Assembly: GCA_902787595.1 (NCBI GenBank)
Contig: CADAHD010000166.1
Coordinates: forward strand, 1-5,499
DNA length: 5,499 nucleotides
Direction of reading: 5' to 3'
DNA from: an uncultured Lachnospiraceae bacterium
Lineage (GTDB): Bacteria > Bacillota_A > Clostridia > Lachnospirales > Lachnospiraceae
Part shown: positions 1-5,499 of the stretch, one piece after another
How positions within the stretch are numbered: position 1 is the stretch's first letter
Layout of the letters: every line of letters begins with the position of its first letter
Position numbers and translations under genes: made by a program
Notes under the pieces: generated by a model
Databases searched by the model: none
What the model was told of the DNA's origin: nothing
The model's input: only the letters and a program-made list of their open reading frames with translations

Positions 1-1
1 C

Positions 2-1252
2 CTTACAAACTGGAAATATCACGGCGTAGCTTATGAGACCCATTATGACTCCATACTCTACGCTCCCGATGTGGTCAAGAAGGGCGATACATATTATATG
101 TACGCTGCAGAGCGCTGCGGAAGCCTTGTGGTGGTCGCCTCTTCAAAAACGCCCTGGGGGCCTTTTGAAAACCCTGTAGAGACAAAGCTGGGCTTCGACC
201 CCGGCGTACTGGTAGATGACGACGGCAAAGTATATGCTTACTGGGGCGGCTGCGCTGCTCCCTGCTATATCGTAGAGCTCGAAGACGACATGGCCACCTT
301 TAAGGAAGAAACCCTGGTTTCCAATCCCATGGGTCATTCCACCTGCCCCTGGGATCCTAAGGATGACGGCCACATCTCTCTCATCGATGCTTTCTTTGAG
401 GCTTCCAGCCCCAGAAAGGTAATGGGCAAATACGTCTACATCTTCTCAAGACGTTATGAAAAACCCATACCTGAACTGGGTATAGATTTTGACTGCAACG
501 GTTTCCTCTCCTACCGCTTCAGCGACAGCCCCTTCGGGCCTTTTATCGAAGGCGGTGACTTCAGCTTTAACGGCGGTGAGATCTTAAAAGACAGCGAAGG
601 CGTCGGCACCATGACCTATCAGTGGGGTAACAATCACGGTTCCATAATGGAAGTAAACGGCATGTGGTATGTCTTCTATCACCGCCAGACCGGCGTTAAC
701 GAATACTCCCGCCAGGCCATGCTCGAACCTATCGATGTAGCTCTCGGAAGAGACGGCCGTCTTTATATCGGTGATATCAAATACTTATGCGGTGAGCCCG
801 TATCAGCAAAGCCGGTTGAAATGACCTCACAGGGCGCCCATATAAACGGCCTGGATGCCTTCAAATGGATCTCTGCAGGCTATGCCTGCCACATATACGG
901 CAGCAAGACCCGCGCCTATGTACAGCCCGTATATGAGCAGCGTGACGACGTATCCTCGCCTGTTGTGGGCATCAGCAGCGGTACCACAGTCGGCTTCCGC
1001 TATCTGCAGTTCGGAAACAATACTCCCGCTAAAGTAAGCGTTGTTCTGGGCGAACATAAGGATATGCTCGTAAAAGTACGCATTGATTCCTACAGAGGCC
1101 GTGTGATCGCCTGTTTCACCGCAGAAAGCAGCGTAAATGAGATCACCGCTGCATTAAACTGCGGCGTGATAGGCAAACATGCTGTTTACTTTGAATTCAT
1201 TTCTGATGAAGAGGGCGTTATAGCCGAATTTGACAGATTTACCTTTGATTAA
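2..1252 (+). CDS. Glycoside hydrolase family 43 enzyme with CBM6-like C-terminal module (5' truncated by window edge)
   Basis: The frame is open from base 2, so the start and N-terminus lie upstream. The GTG at 71 sits inside the conserved YAPDVVKKGDTYYMY block and is not the start. GH43 enzymes are five-bladed beta-propellers that hydrolyse beta-xylosidic or alpha-arabinofuranosidic bonds of plant hemicellulose. Numbering from the first visible codon, FDPGVLVDDDG holds the probable pKa-tuning Asp66, FFEASSPRK holds the probable general-acid Glu133, and WGNNHGS (His212) followed by WYVFYHR is the usual late-propeller block. The general-base Asp should be in the missing N-terminus. Residues about 275-416 form a separate beta-rich module, with FRYLQFG and a final HAVYFEF...FDRFTF pattern, as in family 6 carbohydrate-binding modules. 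Substrate and subfamily cannot be assigned, and secretion cannot be judged without the N-terminus. The gene ends at a shared terminator and converges on the next gene. Confidence 0.9.
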   Translation, partial: LTNWKYHGVAYETHYDSILYAPDVVKKGDTYYMYAAERCGSLVVVASSKTPWGPFENPVETKLGFDPGVLVDDDGKVYAYWGGCAAPCYIVELEDDMATFKEETLVSNPMGHSTCPWDPKDDGHISLIDAFFEASSPRKVMGKYVYIFSRRYEKPIPELGIDFDCNGFLSYRFSDSPFGPFIEGGDFSFNGGEILKDSEGVGTMTYQWGNNHGSIMEVNGMWYVFYHRQTGVNEYSRQAMLEPIDVALGRDGRLYIGDIKYLCGEPVSAKPVEMTSQGAHINGLDAFKWISAGYACHIYGSKTRAYVQPVYEQRDDVSSPVVGISSGTTVGFRYLQFGNNTPAKVSVVLGEHKDMLVKVRIDSYRGRVIACFTAESSVNEITAALNCGVIGKHAVYFEFISDEEGVIAEFDRFTFD

Positions 1253-1269
1253 AAAACTAATATCAATGA

Positions 1270-1298
1270 AAAAGGGGCGCTATCCATACGCCCCTTTT
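1270..1298. terminator. Bidirectional intrinsic terminator between convergent genes
   Basis: AAAAGGGGCG (1270-1279) pairs perfectly with CGCCCCTTTT (1289-1298) around a 9-base loop. The stem carries A and T tracts at its ends, so it gives a G/C-rich hairpin followed by T residues on either strand. It lies 17 bases after the stop of the plus-strand glycosidase and 2 bases after the stop of the minus-strand TerD-domain gene, so it probably ends both transcripts. Confidence 0.85.
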
Positions 1299-1300
1299 CT

Positions 1301-3358
1301 CTATTCGATCCTTCCTTCCATCAATGTGATAAGCTTTTCGTGATCATAACTGCGGATCACTTTCCGTTTATCCCCTTCTGCAAGCTTTATTCTATCCGAT
1401 ACTATCAGCTCTGCCTGCTCAGGATCCTCAACAAGTTCCTGCGCCATAAGCTCAAAGAATCTATATACATTCATAGTGTCAGTTATCTTAAAATAATCCA
1501 GCAAAAAGCTCATGGAAGTATCTCCCGCCACGATGGTCCTTCTGCTGCTGCTTAAGTTAAGCCACATAAATTCCCGCTCTTTTAGATCGATACCAAAAAG
1601 ATACGCAAATATGCTCTTGCCATTTACCAGAAAAGACGTCTGAACCGTCTTGGGTTCATATATCTCTCCGCTGTCAAACAGATCACGCAGCATATACCCC
1701 GCCTTACACATGCACCTGTCAAAAGTCACATTAGAATAAACATTATCGCAGAATATCAGATATCTGATATCCGGATATTCTATCCTGAACATTTCAACAT
1801 CAATATCAAAATACTCCGAGCCACCTGCATATCCGCTGGTTTCATCCCCTGAAAATACTATAGCATCCGATTGTTTGGAAGCCATGGTCCTCCATGAGAA
1901 TTCCATCGCGCTGCCATCCTCTTTCAGTCCGATCACAGAAAGATCTATATCATCAACCTTTTCCCAATAAGTAAAAGCTCTTATCTTTTTTCCATCTTCT
2001 ATCTTAAGGCGGCTGCCTTTTGCCAGCACTCCGTAGCCCGATTGGCCGCTGCTCTCCTGAAGCGGCAATGCATAGTTTTTCATGGGCGTGTCAACATAAA
2101 CCCTGCCCAGCCTGCCCCTCAGCAGCTTATCAAGTTTCTCATCCACATAAGCCTTGACAGTTTTTGCCTGCCCTTCGCTTATCACAGAACGGCGTTTTTT
2201 AATCTCCCTGTCGCTCTCCTTATGCGTCCTTATCAGATTGTTGCGCACAAAAGTGAATTCCCTGCTCACACCCGGTCTTTTAGCCGCAGCATATTTCTGT
2301 TGGAGCTGCAGCAGTATTATAGTATTGTCGGTAGCAGATTCGTTTAAGAGATATGTCAGGTCCGAAGGATCTTCTATTCGGCTGATAATATACTCAAGAT
2401 TCCTGAGCAGCGCTCCGCTGCCTTTGCCTTCCTTCAGCATATCTATTGCCCGGCGTATATCTCCGGCAGCCATTGCCGCTTCAAAGACGGAATAAACCGA
2501 TCTGTTCTCATCTCCGCGCATGGACTCCACAAACAGTTTTCCGTTTTCACTTTTGGCTTTATAGTGGATATGATGCAGAAGCCCGCTCCACAATGCCTTT
2601 TTTTCAAAGCAGTCACGCCATCTGCAATGCTTGTCCGAAAGCTTATTATCAAGTATCTTTTCTATAAACTTTCTGTCTTTATTTCTGAGATTAAGCTTGC
2701 GTGTATCATTAAAATAGTAATCCGAAACAAGCAGTTCATCTACCAGTTTGATAACATCCGAAAGCGATATGAAACGCGCAATATCAACGTCCCGCAACGC
2801 GATCAGCAGCCTTATCGCCGTATTCTTTGAAGCGCAGCGATCTATCTTATGATCATATTCCCTGCGCATTTCGACCAGAAATTCCAGCTGCATCTCATTA
2901 AGCGGTCTGCTCCCCATGAGCATATCATCCGCAGCTTGCTTAAGAAGCTTCACCGCTTCAGCCTCATCGACTATCTCAAACTCTTTTATCTCACAGTTTT
3001 CTTTAAAAGCTGCCCTTTCAAATTTTTCCTCAAAAACAGAGTATCCGGCCTCCGTAAAATTGCCGCTGCCGTATGTTCTGAAATAATGGAGCATCTGATC
3101 GTAAATAAGCTGATCTCTGCTCAACTGTCTTACGCTTGAAGGAAAGCCCCTGTAGAAAGGCTCCGGAACATCAACGCCCAGCATTTCGGAAGCAAAATGG
3201 ATCATATAACGCTCTGCCAGCTCCTGCCCCCTTGTAATGCGTATATTAAAAAAATTAGCCAGCGCAAAGGCTGTCTCAAAACTGTTTTCTTTTCCATAAT
3301 TCACATAGTGGACAAGTATGTGTTTATTAAACAAAAACCGTTTAAAAATATCCTTCAT
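1301..3358 (-). CDS. Large helical protein with a divergent TerD-type domain; possible RNA partner protein
   Basis: The 685-residue protein starts at the ATG at 3358, seven bases after a strong AGGAG. The same frame stays open upstream to a TTG at 3457, but that stretch runs through RNA hairpins and the TTG lacks a ribosome site. Residues 1 to about 400 look wholly helical and repeat-like, including GALLRNLEY near 315-323, and are followed by a basic stretch with KKRR. Residues about 415-600 resemble the TerD beta-sandwich of tellurite/stress-response proteins: GRVYVD at 418, DIDLSVIGL from 470, a SGDETSG turn at 503-509, FDIDV at 517-521 and a late MWLNLS strand. The acidic calcium-binding cluster of classical TerD (GDGDDE-like) is largely lost, so metal binding is doubtful. 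A short helical tail follows. No signal peptide or membrane segment is seen, so it is probably cytoplasmic. From memory it recalls long TerD-containing proteins of actinobacteria and myxobacteria (MXAN_6230/SCO0854 type), which is unverified. It shares a promoter with the Y-like RNA upstream. The function is unknown, and an RNA-binding solenoid is an inference. Confidence 0.75.
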   Translation of the reverse strand: MKDIFKRFLFNKHILVHYVNYGKENSFETAFALANFFNIRITRGQELAERYMIHFASEMLGVDVPEPFYRGFPSSVRQLSRDQLIYDQMLHYFRTYGSGNFTEAGYSVFEEKFERAAFKENCEIKEFEIVDEAEAVKLLKQAADDMLMGSRPLNEMQLEFLVEMRREYDHKIDRCASKNTAIRLLIALRDVDIARFISLSDVIKLVDELLVSDYYFNDTRKLNLRNKDRKFIEKILDNKLSDKHCRWRDCFEKKALWSGLLHHIHYKAKSENGKLFVESMRGDENRSVYSVFEAAMAAGDIRRAIDMLKEGKGSGALLRNLEYIISRIEDPSDLTYLLNESATDNTIILLQLQQKYAAAKRPGVSREFTFVRNNLIRTHKESDREIKKRRSVISEGQAKTVKAYVDEKLDKLLRGRLGRVYVDTPMKNYALPLQESSGQSGYGVLAKGSRLKIEDGKKIRAFTYWEKVDDIDLSVIGLKEDGSAMEFSWRTMASKQSDAIVFSGDETSGYAGGSEYFDIDVEMFRIEYPDIRYLIFCDNVYSNVTFDRCMCKAGYMLRDLFDSGEIYEPKTVQTSFLVNGKSIFAYLFGIDLKEREFMWLNLSSSRRTIVAGDTSMSFLLDYFKITDTMNVYRFFELMAQELVEDPEQAELIVSDRIKLAEGDKRKVIRSYDHEKLITLMEGRIE

Positions 3359-3363
3359 ATTGT

Positions 3364-3371
3364 CTCTCCTT
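3364..3371 (-). promoter_or_regulatory. Ribosome binding site that fixes the start of the TerD-domain gene
   Basis: The minus strand reads AAGGAGAG, a near-perfect anti-16S match, with 7 bases between AGGAG and the ATG at 3358. It lies only about 8 bases after the end of the hairpin at 3379-3438 and overlaps the end of its T-rich tail. Folding of that hairpin, or protein bound to it, could therefore affect ribosome access. Confidence 0.85.
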
Positions 3372-3378
3372 AAATAAA

Positions 3379-3438
3379 GCCGGCGATATCGACGGATTAG
3401 ATTGGCCACCTGTGAAGTAAACCCGTCTAGCTGCCGGC
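3379..3438 (-). promoter_or_regulatory. Leader hairpin copying the basal stem of the Y-like RNA; possible attenuator or autoregulatory site
   Basis: On the minus strand, GCCGGC (3438-3433) pairs with GCCGGC (3384-3379). AGCTA (3432-3428) faces GATATC (3390-3385) as an internal loop. GACGGGTT (3427-3420) then pairs with AATCCGTC (3398-3391), leaving a 21-base apical region. The same layout, with the same internal loop, forms the basal stem of the RNA directly upstream, but here the tRNA-like domain is absent. The stem is followed by TTTATTT (3378-3372), a weak terminator-like tail, and then by the ribosome site. It could be a second short Y-like RNA, an attenuator, or a binding site through which the encoded protein controls its own expression. 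The structure is clear; the role is inferred. Confidence 0.7.
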
Positions 3439-3571
3439 TTTTTTCCGGCGATATCAACAGATTAAGGTGTCATTGAAGCTCTGCCGTTGAGCTACACGGC
3501 CGAAGCCATGGCGGGAGTCGAACCCGCATCTTCAACGCCAATGGCTTGAAGTAAACCTGCTTAGCTGCCGG
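3379..3571 (-). repeat. Two diverged copies of a basal-stem element flanking the tRNA-like domain and the leader hairpin
   Basis: The 5' halves (3571-3547 and 3437-3413) match at 22 of 25 positions. The 3' halves (3465-3445 and 3400-3380) match at 18 of 21. Two stem pairs change from A-U to G-C on both strands and one changes from G-U to A-U, so pairing is kept throughout. The remaining change lies outside the stem. This is duplication with compensatory change, which supports selection on the fold. Copy 1 encloses the tRNA mimic and copy 2 has only a short loop. Confidence 0.85.
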
Positions 3572-3574
3572 AAC
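3445..3574 (-). ncRNA. Y RNA-like (YrlA-type) RNA with a circularly permuted tRNA mimic
   Basis: The promoter places the 5' end near 3574. The ends form a basal stem: CCGGC (3571-3567) pairs with GCCGG (3449-3445), AGCTA faces GATATC as an internal loop, and AGCAGGTT (3561-3554) pairs with AATCTGTT (3463-3456). Inside lies a tRNA-like module in permuted order. CGTTGAA (3537-3531) pairs with TTCAATG (3477-3471) in place of the anticodon stem. The T-arm is GCGGG-TTCGACT-CCCGC (3527-3511). The acceptor stem CATGGC/GCCGTG (3510-3505 with 3500-3495) is closed by a UUCG tetraloop, so there is no free CCA end. TA and the D-arm GCTC-AACGGCA-GAGC (3492-3478) follow, with the loop GG that would contact the T-loop. 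This matches the published plan of bacterial YrlA RNAs, which bind Ro60/Rsr and mimic tRNA. No Ro60 is visible here. The 3' end is uncertain: only six A residues separate it from the next hairpin, so it may be processed from a longer leader transcript. Confidence 0.8.
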
Positions 3575-3580
3575 ATTATC

Positions 3581-3609
3581 ATTATACAATCAGGCGCCTG
3601 CTGCGTCAA
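3581..3609 (-). promoter_or_regulatory. Consensus sigma-A promoter for the Y-like RNA and TerD-domain gene
   Basis: TTGACG (3609-3604), a 17-base spacer and a perfect TATAAT (3586-3581) predict a start near 3574, three bases before the first paired base of the RNA. The spacer contains the perfect 10-base palindrome CAGGCGCCTG (3600-3591), which could be an operator or chance. The strength suggests abundant constitutive transcription unless it is repressed. The promoter lies downstream of the GTPase gene's terminator, which makes this a separate transcription unit. Confidence 0.9.
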
Positions 3610-3636
3610 TTATGCTTAACCTTACATTTTTACAAT

Positions 3637-3695
3637 AAAAAAATCCCCCTTTTACCGTGATCGTTGTTACCACAACGCTGCCATAAAAGAGGGAT
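3637..3695 (-). terminator. Strong compound intrinsic terminator after the dynamin-like gene
   Basis: On the minus strand, ATCCCTCTTTTA (3695-3684) pairs with TAAAAGGGGGAT (3654-3643) over 12 pairs with one G-U. It encloses a second hairpin, CGTTGT/ACAACG (3677-3672 with 3667-3662), closed by a GGTA loop of the GNRA type. Seven T residues (3643-3637) follow. It begins about 10 bases after the stop at 3706 and separates the GTPase gene from the promoter at 3609. Confidence 0.9.
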
Positions 3696-3705
3696 GAGCT
3701 GTTTA

Positions 3706-5499
3706 TTATTCTTCAGACCATATCCTTTTATTCAGTGCCTCGTCCTGAGCCCCTATCATATCAAGAACTTCCTTGGCCTTCTTCTGCTCTTCGATCGCTC
3801 TGCTCTCATCCTTGATCAAAAGCTCCAGACTTCCGGAGATCGTATCGATATTGTTTCTGAACTCTTCAACCATCTGAGCCGTACGCTGCTGCGCCACCTT
3901 GATGACCTCTTCCTTATATGCTACAAACTGCTCAACCGTCTGTGCATTGAAAGCGCGCTCCAGGTCTCTCTTATACGCTTTCTTATCCATGGTATTAAAG
4001 ATCAGGATCGCTTTCTGCTCATTGATGTAATCATTCATCTTCAGTGCATTCAGCTCCGAAGGCGGTATCTCGGTATCAGAGATGTTGGCAATCCTTCTTA
4101 TCAGCCCTTCATCTATACCCTTATATTCCTTGATCTTCTTAACAATGATATCCTTAAGTTCGCTGACCTGCGACGCCAGGATGTCGCCACGGATCTTCTT
4201 ATAATAATCATCGATCTCCTGCAGATATCTGTTAAGCTCGCTGATGATGATGGTATTCTTCTTTTCGAAGATCTCGGGCTTAAGGGCTATCCACTGCATC
4301 TTATCGGCCTGCCTGCTTGCCAGTTCCTGACGCTGTTCTATCTGGCGCACCAGTTCCTTGATCTCTTCAACCTGAGTCTCAAGAGAATCATCCGTAATGC
4401 GTGCTACAAATTCCTCATGCGCAGCTTCGATATCCTGCACCATGCTGGTCTTCATTATCTCGATATTCTTTTCGATATGCTCCTTTGAAAGACGGGCCTG
4501 GTTTTCTATCGCCTCGTAATCCGTACGTATGAAATCGATAAGTCCTTCTATGCCGTCATAAAGCCCCTTCGCTTTAACAGCCAGCGCATACTTCTGGGCA
4601 TATTTTATGATCTCCTGCTCGATGGCATACATGCCGGAGTTGATATATATCCTGTGGATAACACCCTCAAGGGAATTATCGCAGGCATCCGCTGCTTTCT
4701 CGCAGTCGATGAGCAGCTGCTTGGTCTCAAAATCAGCATCGGAGAGCTTATCATATCTGTAGAAAATACCGCTGTCCGAAGATATATCCGTAGGATTTTC
4801 GGTAAAGGGATCGCGTGTAGGCTCATTATTTATCTCACTCTTATGATTTGCCAGCCAGGTACGCTCATCTTCAAGATCCACATTGGACTCGATAGCCTTA
4901 CTGATATATGCAGCCTTTGAAGAGACAAAGAAGAGTCTTGCGTTGGCAAGATCGATCTCCATATCCTCTTCATCATAGATCTTATCTTCTTCCTTAAGCG
5001 ATACCACAACTTTCTTATTACGCAGAAGCTTAAGATCCTTGCTGCCTTTGGTATCCGCCTGATTTATAACATGGAAAGAACGGTCCAGATCTATGGACAC
5101 GCCTGCTTCATTCTTCTTACCGTCTTTAAAGCCGCCGATGAGCTTGTAGAGCACCGAATTACCGGTACCTTCCATCTTCGTAGGCTCATAAATGACAATA
5201 AGGATGGAATTGGTCTGATGCTGCAGGGCTTCTTTTAAAATGAGCAGATGCTCACTGGAATTGGAATCCGTTCCCGGAGTGTCAAAGAATGTAAAGTTGA
5301 TATTCTTGCACAGGGGGATAGGGAAGCCCACCTCTATTATGCCTCCGATGAAGCCCGAACCATCCTTCTGCTCGTGATTGGGCACATCGTTAAGTTTTTT
5401 AAGAATACGGCAAAGCTGCTCGTGCTGGCGAAGACCAAGCTCCGCTACAGCGCTGCATTCAAGTTCGAGCATGCGCCTGATATGTTCCTCAATATTTCC
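3706..5499 (-). CDS. Dynamin-like large GTPase (5' truncated by window edge)
   Basis: The frame is open to the window edge: nine further codons precede the Met at 5472, and that Met lies inside the GTPase domain, so it is not the start. At least 597 residues are visible. Numbered from the edge, FFDTPGTDSNSSEH carries the G3 switch (DTPG 73-76). VIYEPTK is the following core strand, NQAD (146-149) is a probable G4 base-recognition motif in place of NKxD, and VSSKAAY (193-195) fits G5. The G1 P-loop should lie just upstream. After the GTPase domain comes an almost wholly helical region (about 250-597) rich in Glu, Lys and Gln, like the stalk or coiled-coil part of bacterial dynamin-like proteins. 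These are GTP-driven assemblies that often act on membranes. No transmembrane segment is evident, so the membrane role is unproven. A partner dynamin-like gene often lies next to such genes and could be outside the window. It has its own terminator and lies co-directionally upstream of the Y-like RNA unit. Confidence 0.8.
   Translation of the reverse strand, partial: GNIEEHIRRMLELECSAVAELGLRQHEQLCRILKKLNDVPNHEQKDGSGFIGGIIEVGFPIPLCKNINFTFFDTPGTDSNSSEHLLILKEALQHQTNSILIVIYEPTKMEGTGNSVLYKLIGGFKDGKKNEAGVSIDLDRSFHVINQADTKGSKDLKLLRNKKVVVSLKEEDKIYDEEDMEIDLANARLFFVSSKAAYISKAIESNVDLEDERTWLANHKSEINNEPTRDPFTENPTDISSDSGIFYRYDKLSDADFETKQLLIDCEKAADACDNSLEGVIHRIYINSGMYAIEQEIIKYAQKYALAVKAKGLYDGIEGLIDFIRTDYEAIENQARLSKEHIEKNIEIMKTSMVQDIEAAHEEFVARITDDSLETQVEEIKELVRQIEQRQELASRQADKMQWIALKPEIFEKKNTIIISELNRYLQEIDDYYKKIRGDILASQVSELKDIIVKKIKEYKGIDEGLIRRIANISDTEIPPSELNALKMNDYINEQKAILIFNTMDKKAYKRDLERAFNAQTVEQFVAYKEEVIKVAQQRTAQMVEEFRNNIDTISGSLELLIKDESRAIEEQKKAKEVLDMIGAQDEALNKRIWSEE

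Follow-up and report, generated by a model that had tools for sequence, protein, structure and literature searches.

A stretch of 5,499 nucleotides from an uncultured Lachnospiraceae bacterium (GenBank assembly GCA_902787595.1, contig CADAHD010000166.1, positions 1 to 5,499; hereafter the window) probably encodes a variant of the Ro/Y-RNA ribonucleoprotein. On its minus strand, a promoter-like site is followed by a full-length Y-type RNA with a circularly permuted tRNA mimic, a minimal Y-type RNA without the mimic, a ribosome-binding site, and a gene for a protein of 685 amino acids (aa). Both RNA folds are conserved, recur in tandem, and are closely linked to this gene in bacteria and on viral contigs. 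Expression of the locus as one transcription unit, binding of the RNAs by the protein, descent of the protein from Ro60, and the function of the resulting particle are proposed. An earlier reading of the window from its letters (the sequence-only reading) had described a single Y-type RNA. That RNA, at 3444-3574, was confirmed; a second, minimal copy (3373-3444) and the gene (1301-3358) had been missed.

A full-length RNA with a permuted tRNA mimic

The full-length RNA (3444-3574; all window features given here lie on the minus strand) is closed by an outer stem formed by its two ends (3572-3567 with 3449-3444). An internal loop, with a conserved AGCUA on its 5' side (3562-3566) and GAUAUC on its 3' side (3450-3455; the majority sequence, not invariant), leads to an inner stem of 7 base pairs (3561-3555 with 3462-3456), directly after which comes a conserved UUACUUC strand (3548-3554). 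AGCUA and UUACUUC recur in the alignments of both copy types. The order of elements that the sequence-only reading had given for the mimic was located at 3527-3478: a T-arm (GCGGGUUCGACUCCCGC, 3511-3527), an acceptor stem (3495-3510) whose 3' strand, UUCG cap (3504-3501), and 5' strand follow one another, and a D-arm (3478-3492).

Alignment A2, with 30 full-length copies including that of the window, was drawn from 38 listed copies, eight of which (from loci L060, L068, L069, and L075) were left out before counting. In A2, 24 of the 33 base pairs vary on both sides, with a covariation score of 0.569 versus 0.214 in shuffled alignments, and 91.1% of the cells are paired, versus 73.8% in shuffles and 35-46% when the structure is slid along the alignment. 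Pairing reaches 99.0% in the inner stem, 98.3% in the acceptor stem, 100% in both the T-arm and the D-arm, and 91.7% in the outer stem. All six acceptor pairs change on both sides, and compensatory changes are also found in the outer and inner stems; in the D-arm, three of four pairs are invariant and all cells are paired. A short helix where a tRNA would have its anticodon stem was not confirmed by covariation, with 51.4% of the A2 cells paired. The AGCUA motif (columns 10-14) is invariant in A2. The folding energy of the RNA is weak evidence by itself (z = -1.82, a stability equaled or exceeded by 8 of 200 shuffles), and the fold is accepted because covariation settles it. A covariance model built from the 30 copies (R1) scores the window copy, which belongs to its training set, at 111.9 bits. 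In one homologous locus (L060:3830-3978), the mimic appears by eye to have a long variable arm, as in leucine or serine tRNAs.

A search with Y RNA covariance models, which the sequence-only reading had proposed, found the YrlA family of Rfam (RF02553) at 3552-3448, with 41.4 bits (E = 8.3e-7), 28 bits short of the gathering score of 69. The RNA has the structural hallmarks of that family, a basal stem from the RNA ends and permuted T, acceptor, and D arms; its score lies below the 69 bits, as do those of four of five homologous loci tested (42.1-47.0 bits). Together with the covariation and model R1, the match bears out the YrlA-like, UUCG-capped mimic. The same reading had asked whether a degenerate piece of an ordinary tRNA or transfer-messenger RNA (tmRNA) gene would fit better. 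Such a fragment would account for the tRNA-like arms, and the tmRNA model does match the 17-nucleotide (nt) T-arm, though at just 16.6 bits against a gathering score of 47; ARAGORN called neither a tRNA nor a tmRNA, and a degenerate fragment sits badly with compensatory changes in the outer, inner, and acceptor stems. On the Rfam result, ARAGORN, and covariation, we reject this explanation as next to impossible.

A minimal RNA without the mimic

The minimal RNA (3373-3444) has the same stem and motifs. It repeats both stem halves of the full-length RNA (two repeats, 88% and 90% identical) around a short loop, is also marked by an inverted repeat (I1), and is folded more stably than any of 200 shuffles (3372-3446; z = -3.69). 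No Rfam family matched it in a search of the window at E values up to 5. In alignment A3, comprising 54 of the 56 minimal copies listed, all 14 pairs change on both sides (12.3 in shuffles), the covariation score is 0.864 versus 0.302, and 86.6% of the cells are paired, versus 56.7% in shuffles. The first four letters of AGCUA are invariant in A3, and the fifth nearly so. A covariance model built from these 54 copies (R2) gives the window copy, a member of its training set, 67.8 bits.

Linkage of the RNAs to the gene

A protein-family scan of genome contigs found 183 stretches encoding a relative of the protein. The best 80 loci were kept, which with the window make 81 sources; as labeled, they come mostly from Lachnospiraceae and other Clostridia, with a few from Erysipelothrix or Chloroflexi. 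A simple pattern search recovered 133 RNA copies in 68 of the 81 sources. Because this pattern demanded inner-stem pairing, a second test on the 80 loci required only the 5' motif; in 66 loci it yielded 133 copies at most 1.7 kb upstream of the gene. Six or seven of the seven inner-stem pairs could form in 129 of these 133 copies, compared with a mean of 56.0 and a maximum of 68 in a stem-exchange control (50 shuffles).

The covariance models gave 129 (R1) and 98 (R2) matches at E values up to 1 in the 81 sources. In the window and 66 of the loci, 67 sources in all, one to eight R1 matches each were located no more than 1.7 kb upstream of the gene; these account for 116 of the 129, and the other 13 fell elsewhere. 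The link is strong and yet not universal, because ten loci had no R1 match, four of them with 4 kb of upstream sequence. Among 200 Lachnospiraceae genomes, R2 matches occurred in six and the protein profile in seven, and the six were all among the seven (Fisher p = 8.5e-11). The filters of this RNA search were strict, such that weak copies may have been missed. No fewer than four of the six RNA-positive genomes were already represented among the homologous loci. In all six, the RNA immediately precedes the gene, or its first fragment in the case of genome G098. The TerD-family gene of G098 (L123, G098:C278) is interrupted, and both upstream RNAs are kept.

The seventh genome, G200, encodes a distant homolog of the MXAN_6230 type with a YrlA-like RNA just downstream (L118:6708-6839; Rfam E = 1.2e-5; 66.7 bits with R1), the internal loop of which is unlike AGCUA; by eye, a second, minimal copy is also present. 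R2 at E values up to 10 found nothing in 16 loci that were TROVE-linked or held a distant homolog, including L093 and that of G200.

A literature search disclosed the link between such RNAs and a TerD gene in no title among the matches listed, and it may have been published earlier.

Promoters and the possibility of a cis-acting leader

A putative sigma-70-type promoter (TTGACG-17-TATAAT, 3581-3609) precedes the full-length RNA. The sequence-only reading had placed a consensus promoter here; the site exists and agrees with the consensus in 11 of 12 letters, but chance alone would produce a mean of 1.0 such site in the 601 bases scanned. Across the 80 loci, a -10/-35 pair (at most one and at most three mismatches) precedes 40 of 64 first copies and 14 of 67 later ones.

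These positions bear on a different explanation, in which the stems act chiefly in cis, as attenuators or autoregulatory binding sites in the leader of the downstream gene, and the mRNA uses the mimic to attract its own protein product or tRNA enzymes. The last copy is close to the start codon (a median of 103 nt from AGCUA; within 150 nt in 49 of 66 loci), later copies are mostly promoterless, and a run of at least five T residues follows 18 of 65 last copies, compared with 8 of 64 other copies. Against this stand the promoters of the first copies, the arrays, which reach eight consecutive copies ahead of the gene in L069 (2492-3929) and six in a viral locus (L130), the RNAs that follow rather than precede the gene in L068, L078, and L118, and the consideration that attenuation has no need of a complete mimic. 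We consider a mainly cis-acting role unlikely; attenuation in particular was rejected, T-runs being uncommon after last copies.

The partner protein

The gene beside the RNAs (1301-3358) encodes a protein with an N-terminal region, helical repeats at approximately residues 120-415, and a TerD fold at approximately residues 442-619. The ATG at 3358 is preferred as its start for the ribosome-binding site read from the sequence (AAGGAG, 3366-3371); the open reading frame (ORF) list gives a longer form that starts from a TTG at 3457.

The sequence-only reading had noted that the locus lacks a recognizable Ro60 protein. Pfam indeed finds no TROVE domain (PF05731) in the protein, nor was a von Willebrand factor A (vWA) profile matched, but the conserved gene downstream of the RNAs may itself encode a diverged Ro60-type ring. 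In a structure comparison, all alignments of at least 200 residues among the matches listed were to TROVE proteins (9 of 50 rows, and 5 of 50 in a second comparison), and the TerD-like fold sits where Ro60 has its vWA domain. A profile-profile comparison with TROVE (hhalign) scored 35.7 (E = 0.0026; probability, 11%), above all of 120 column shuffles (maximum, 26.2) and the reversed profile (20.8), and paired LHHIHYKAK..LFVESMRG with AHPKP..LFRYLRG and ALLRNL with ALLRHL of TROVE. With a different TROVE set the probability was 1.4%; a model of the domain alone (A8) did not raise the Foldseek significance, its first TROVE row being at rank 32; and a sequence search of solved structures found no match to the protein.

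An appreciable though less than even chance is left to the explanation that the Y-type RNAs serve this protein and that it is unrelated to Ro60, some other helical-repeat solenoid fused to TerD having come to bind the Y stem. Against it count the TROVE proteins in every long structural alignment listed and the profile score above 120 of 120 shuffles, with the LHHIHYKAK..LFVESMRG and ALLRNL segments aligned to TROVE. Judged by the structure and profile comparisons, the protein may be a diverged Ro60-type ring in which TerD replaces vWA.

Among known families, the protein matches NF041916 (MXAN_6230/SCO0854) over residues 283-606 (E = 3.7e-31). It falls outside that equivalog because it scores 108.1 bits against a cut-off of 600. 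All 37 members of protein alignment A1 match NF041916, and the A1 profile matches the Paenibacillus branch with an E value of 1.7e-36.

A possible Ro60 elsewhere in the genome

It might also be supposed that the RNA is an ordinary YrlA whose partner is a standard Ro60/Rsr from some other part of the genome. The YrlA match and the UACUUC strand, which it has in common with RNAs linked to TROVE genes, are in keeping with this, and the missed gathering score is no distinction: a YrlA match lies near the gene in six of nine TROVE loci scanned, and since all six (31.6-49.6 bits) miss the gathering score too, that score separates little. However, TROVE was found in none of the six genomes that carry the system and in none of the 200 Lachnospiraceae genomes; among 14 control genomes, one, Deinobacterium, was positive in both searches. 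An ordinary Ro60 partner was rejected on these counts as very improbable. This exclusion is limited to the Lachnospiraceae tested, because among 398 Bacillota, with TROVE in nine and the protein family in five, three of the four distant carriers among these five also have TROVE elsewhere.

UACUUC is present in five of the six TROVE-linked RNAs, where by eye it follows immediately on the inner stem; the sixth has UUCCUUC. The internal loops of these RNAs, compared by eye, are not of the AGCUA/RAUAUC type, a further point against an ordinary YrlA. A common UACUUC strand and a partner-specific internal loop fit co-evolution of these RNAs with another protein.

Copies on viral contigs

Nine loci on contigs of IMG/VR, the database on which their phage nature rests, encode the protein (L124-L132; 38-50% identity). 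They were found by the protein alone, and all nine have two to six tandem RNA copies directly upstream, six in L130. Two pairs look identical, which leaves seven distinct loci by match coordinates. A PHROGs scan of ten viral-contig proteins found no structural phage gene; the TerD half of the L129 protein matches phrog_33734, of unknown function (E = 1.8e-22). In L129, L130, and L131, the protein is encoded by two overlapping ORFs, the first matching the window protein from residue 1 to 334-339 and the second from 345 to 680-681, a division that marks the two halves as separable. The split falls at approximately residue 340, and L132 looks identical. A reverse transcriptase gene lies upstream of the RNA array in L129 (1208-2353; PF00078, E = 3.3e-17).

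A viral alignment was made of 22 matches, picked by the models but outside their training sets and including L141, with the minimal copy of the window as its first row. Its covariation score is 0.958 versus 0.267 in shuffles, and 85.7% of the cells are paired (97.5% in the inner stem) versus 50.7%; double changes occur at 13 of 14 pairs, no better than in shuffles. A DNA-pattern search of viral contigs returned 15 loci, among which an R2 E value of 0.001 was reached by L136 (on the contig of L130) and L141 only. The match in L141 (6643-6709, minus strand) is a strong one to the minimal RNA (E = 4.2e-10).

Neighboring genes

A conserved operon was rejected, as apart from the gene itself no neighbor cluster occurs in more than 6 of the 81 sources. 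Pfam, applied to 98 of 126 upstream neighbor ORFs, found RtcB three times; the commonest family was Metallophos, with five. An RtcB gene lies within 4 kb in four of the 81 sources (L003, at 2515-3759, L009, L010, and L058), too few for us to claim an RtcB operon. A dynamin-like GTPase gene upstream of the promoter in the window (3706-5499; PF00350, E = 3e-5, below the cut-off) is not in the neighbor clusters common to homologous loci. In L001 (2-2660), a single frame of 885 aa seems to join an IspG-like gene, so named by eye, to the TerD-family gene, by either fusion or assembly error.

Proposed mechanism

YrlA is described as consisting of a stem that the two RNA ends form, interrupted by an internal loop, and of D, T, and acceptor arms (PMC8394870). 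In the Deinococcus and Salmonella systems, the basal stem tethers the Ro ring and the tRNA-like domain binds polynucleotide phosphorylase (PNPase), and the rsr and Y RNA genes can adjoin that for the RtcB ligase (PMC8394870, PMC7790460). According to a survey of jumbo phages, some encode a TROVE protein as an RNA-repair platform (PMC7824862).

In the window, the promoter at 3609-3581 would start one transcript, with the two Y-type RNAs ahead of the partner mRNA. The helical-repeat ring of the partner, probably of the Ro60 type, would bind the Y stem via the AGCUA/RAUAUC loop and UUACUUC, with TerD standing where Ro60 has vWA. The permuted tRNA core of the full-length RNA could then draw tRNA-binding factors to the ring, as with PNPase in Deinococcus, or could be a decoy for tRNA-cleaving or tRNA-modifying enzymes. 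PNPase is present in all seven genomes examined, a weak support because it is expected of most bacteria. The minimal RNA might occupy the ring without an effector, or sense free protein from the leader, and viral copies might be of use against tRNA-directed attack. We give about even odds to the broader proposal that this is a second Ro lineage, in which arrays of Y RNAs, ranging from complete mimics to bare stems, and a Ro60-like ring with TerD in place of vWA replace Ro60 in gut Lachnospiraceae and are carried by phages. During attack on tRNAs, these mimics may have a protective role or may direct the repair and decay of RNA.

Ro60 and the Y RNAs have mostly been studied as one protein-RNA pair, the bacterial role of which is known from few species. 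Y-type RNAs that keep the stem and the mimic but follow another protein would be a natural means of telling features of the RNA from those of Ro60. Where one locus mixes copies with and without the mimic, the role of the mimic could be studied apart from that of the stem, the viral copies may tie the particle to conflicts that target tRNAs, and the uncharacterized TerD/MXAN_6230 family gains its first testable partner.

Comparison with known systems

Vertebrate Y RNAs have a stem without a tRNA mimic, as do the minimal copies described here; none was among the Rfam matches of the window at E values up to 5, the sole sequence comparison made with them. The partner protein resembles the MXAN_6230/SCO0854 TerD family in its profile match, and differs from it in scoring below the equivalog cut-off and in having no RING domain by Pfam scan. 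It is like Ro60/Rsr (TROVE plus vWA, PF05731) in that its gene stands beside Y-type RNAs, its predicted structure is one of helical repeats, and its long listed structural matches are all TROVE; it is unlike Ro60/Rsr in that it has a TerD fold at the vWA position and no sequence match is significant. Finally, while the RNAs depart from the YrlA of Rsr-RtcB operons and of Deinococcus in the AGCUA/RAUAUC loop, in tandem arrays with mimic-free copies, and in a partner that is not TROVE by sequence, they share with it the end-formed stem, the internal loop, the D, T, and acceptor arms, the UACUUC strand and, in a few sources, a nearby RtcB gene.
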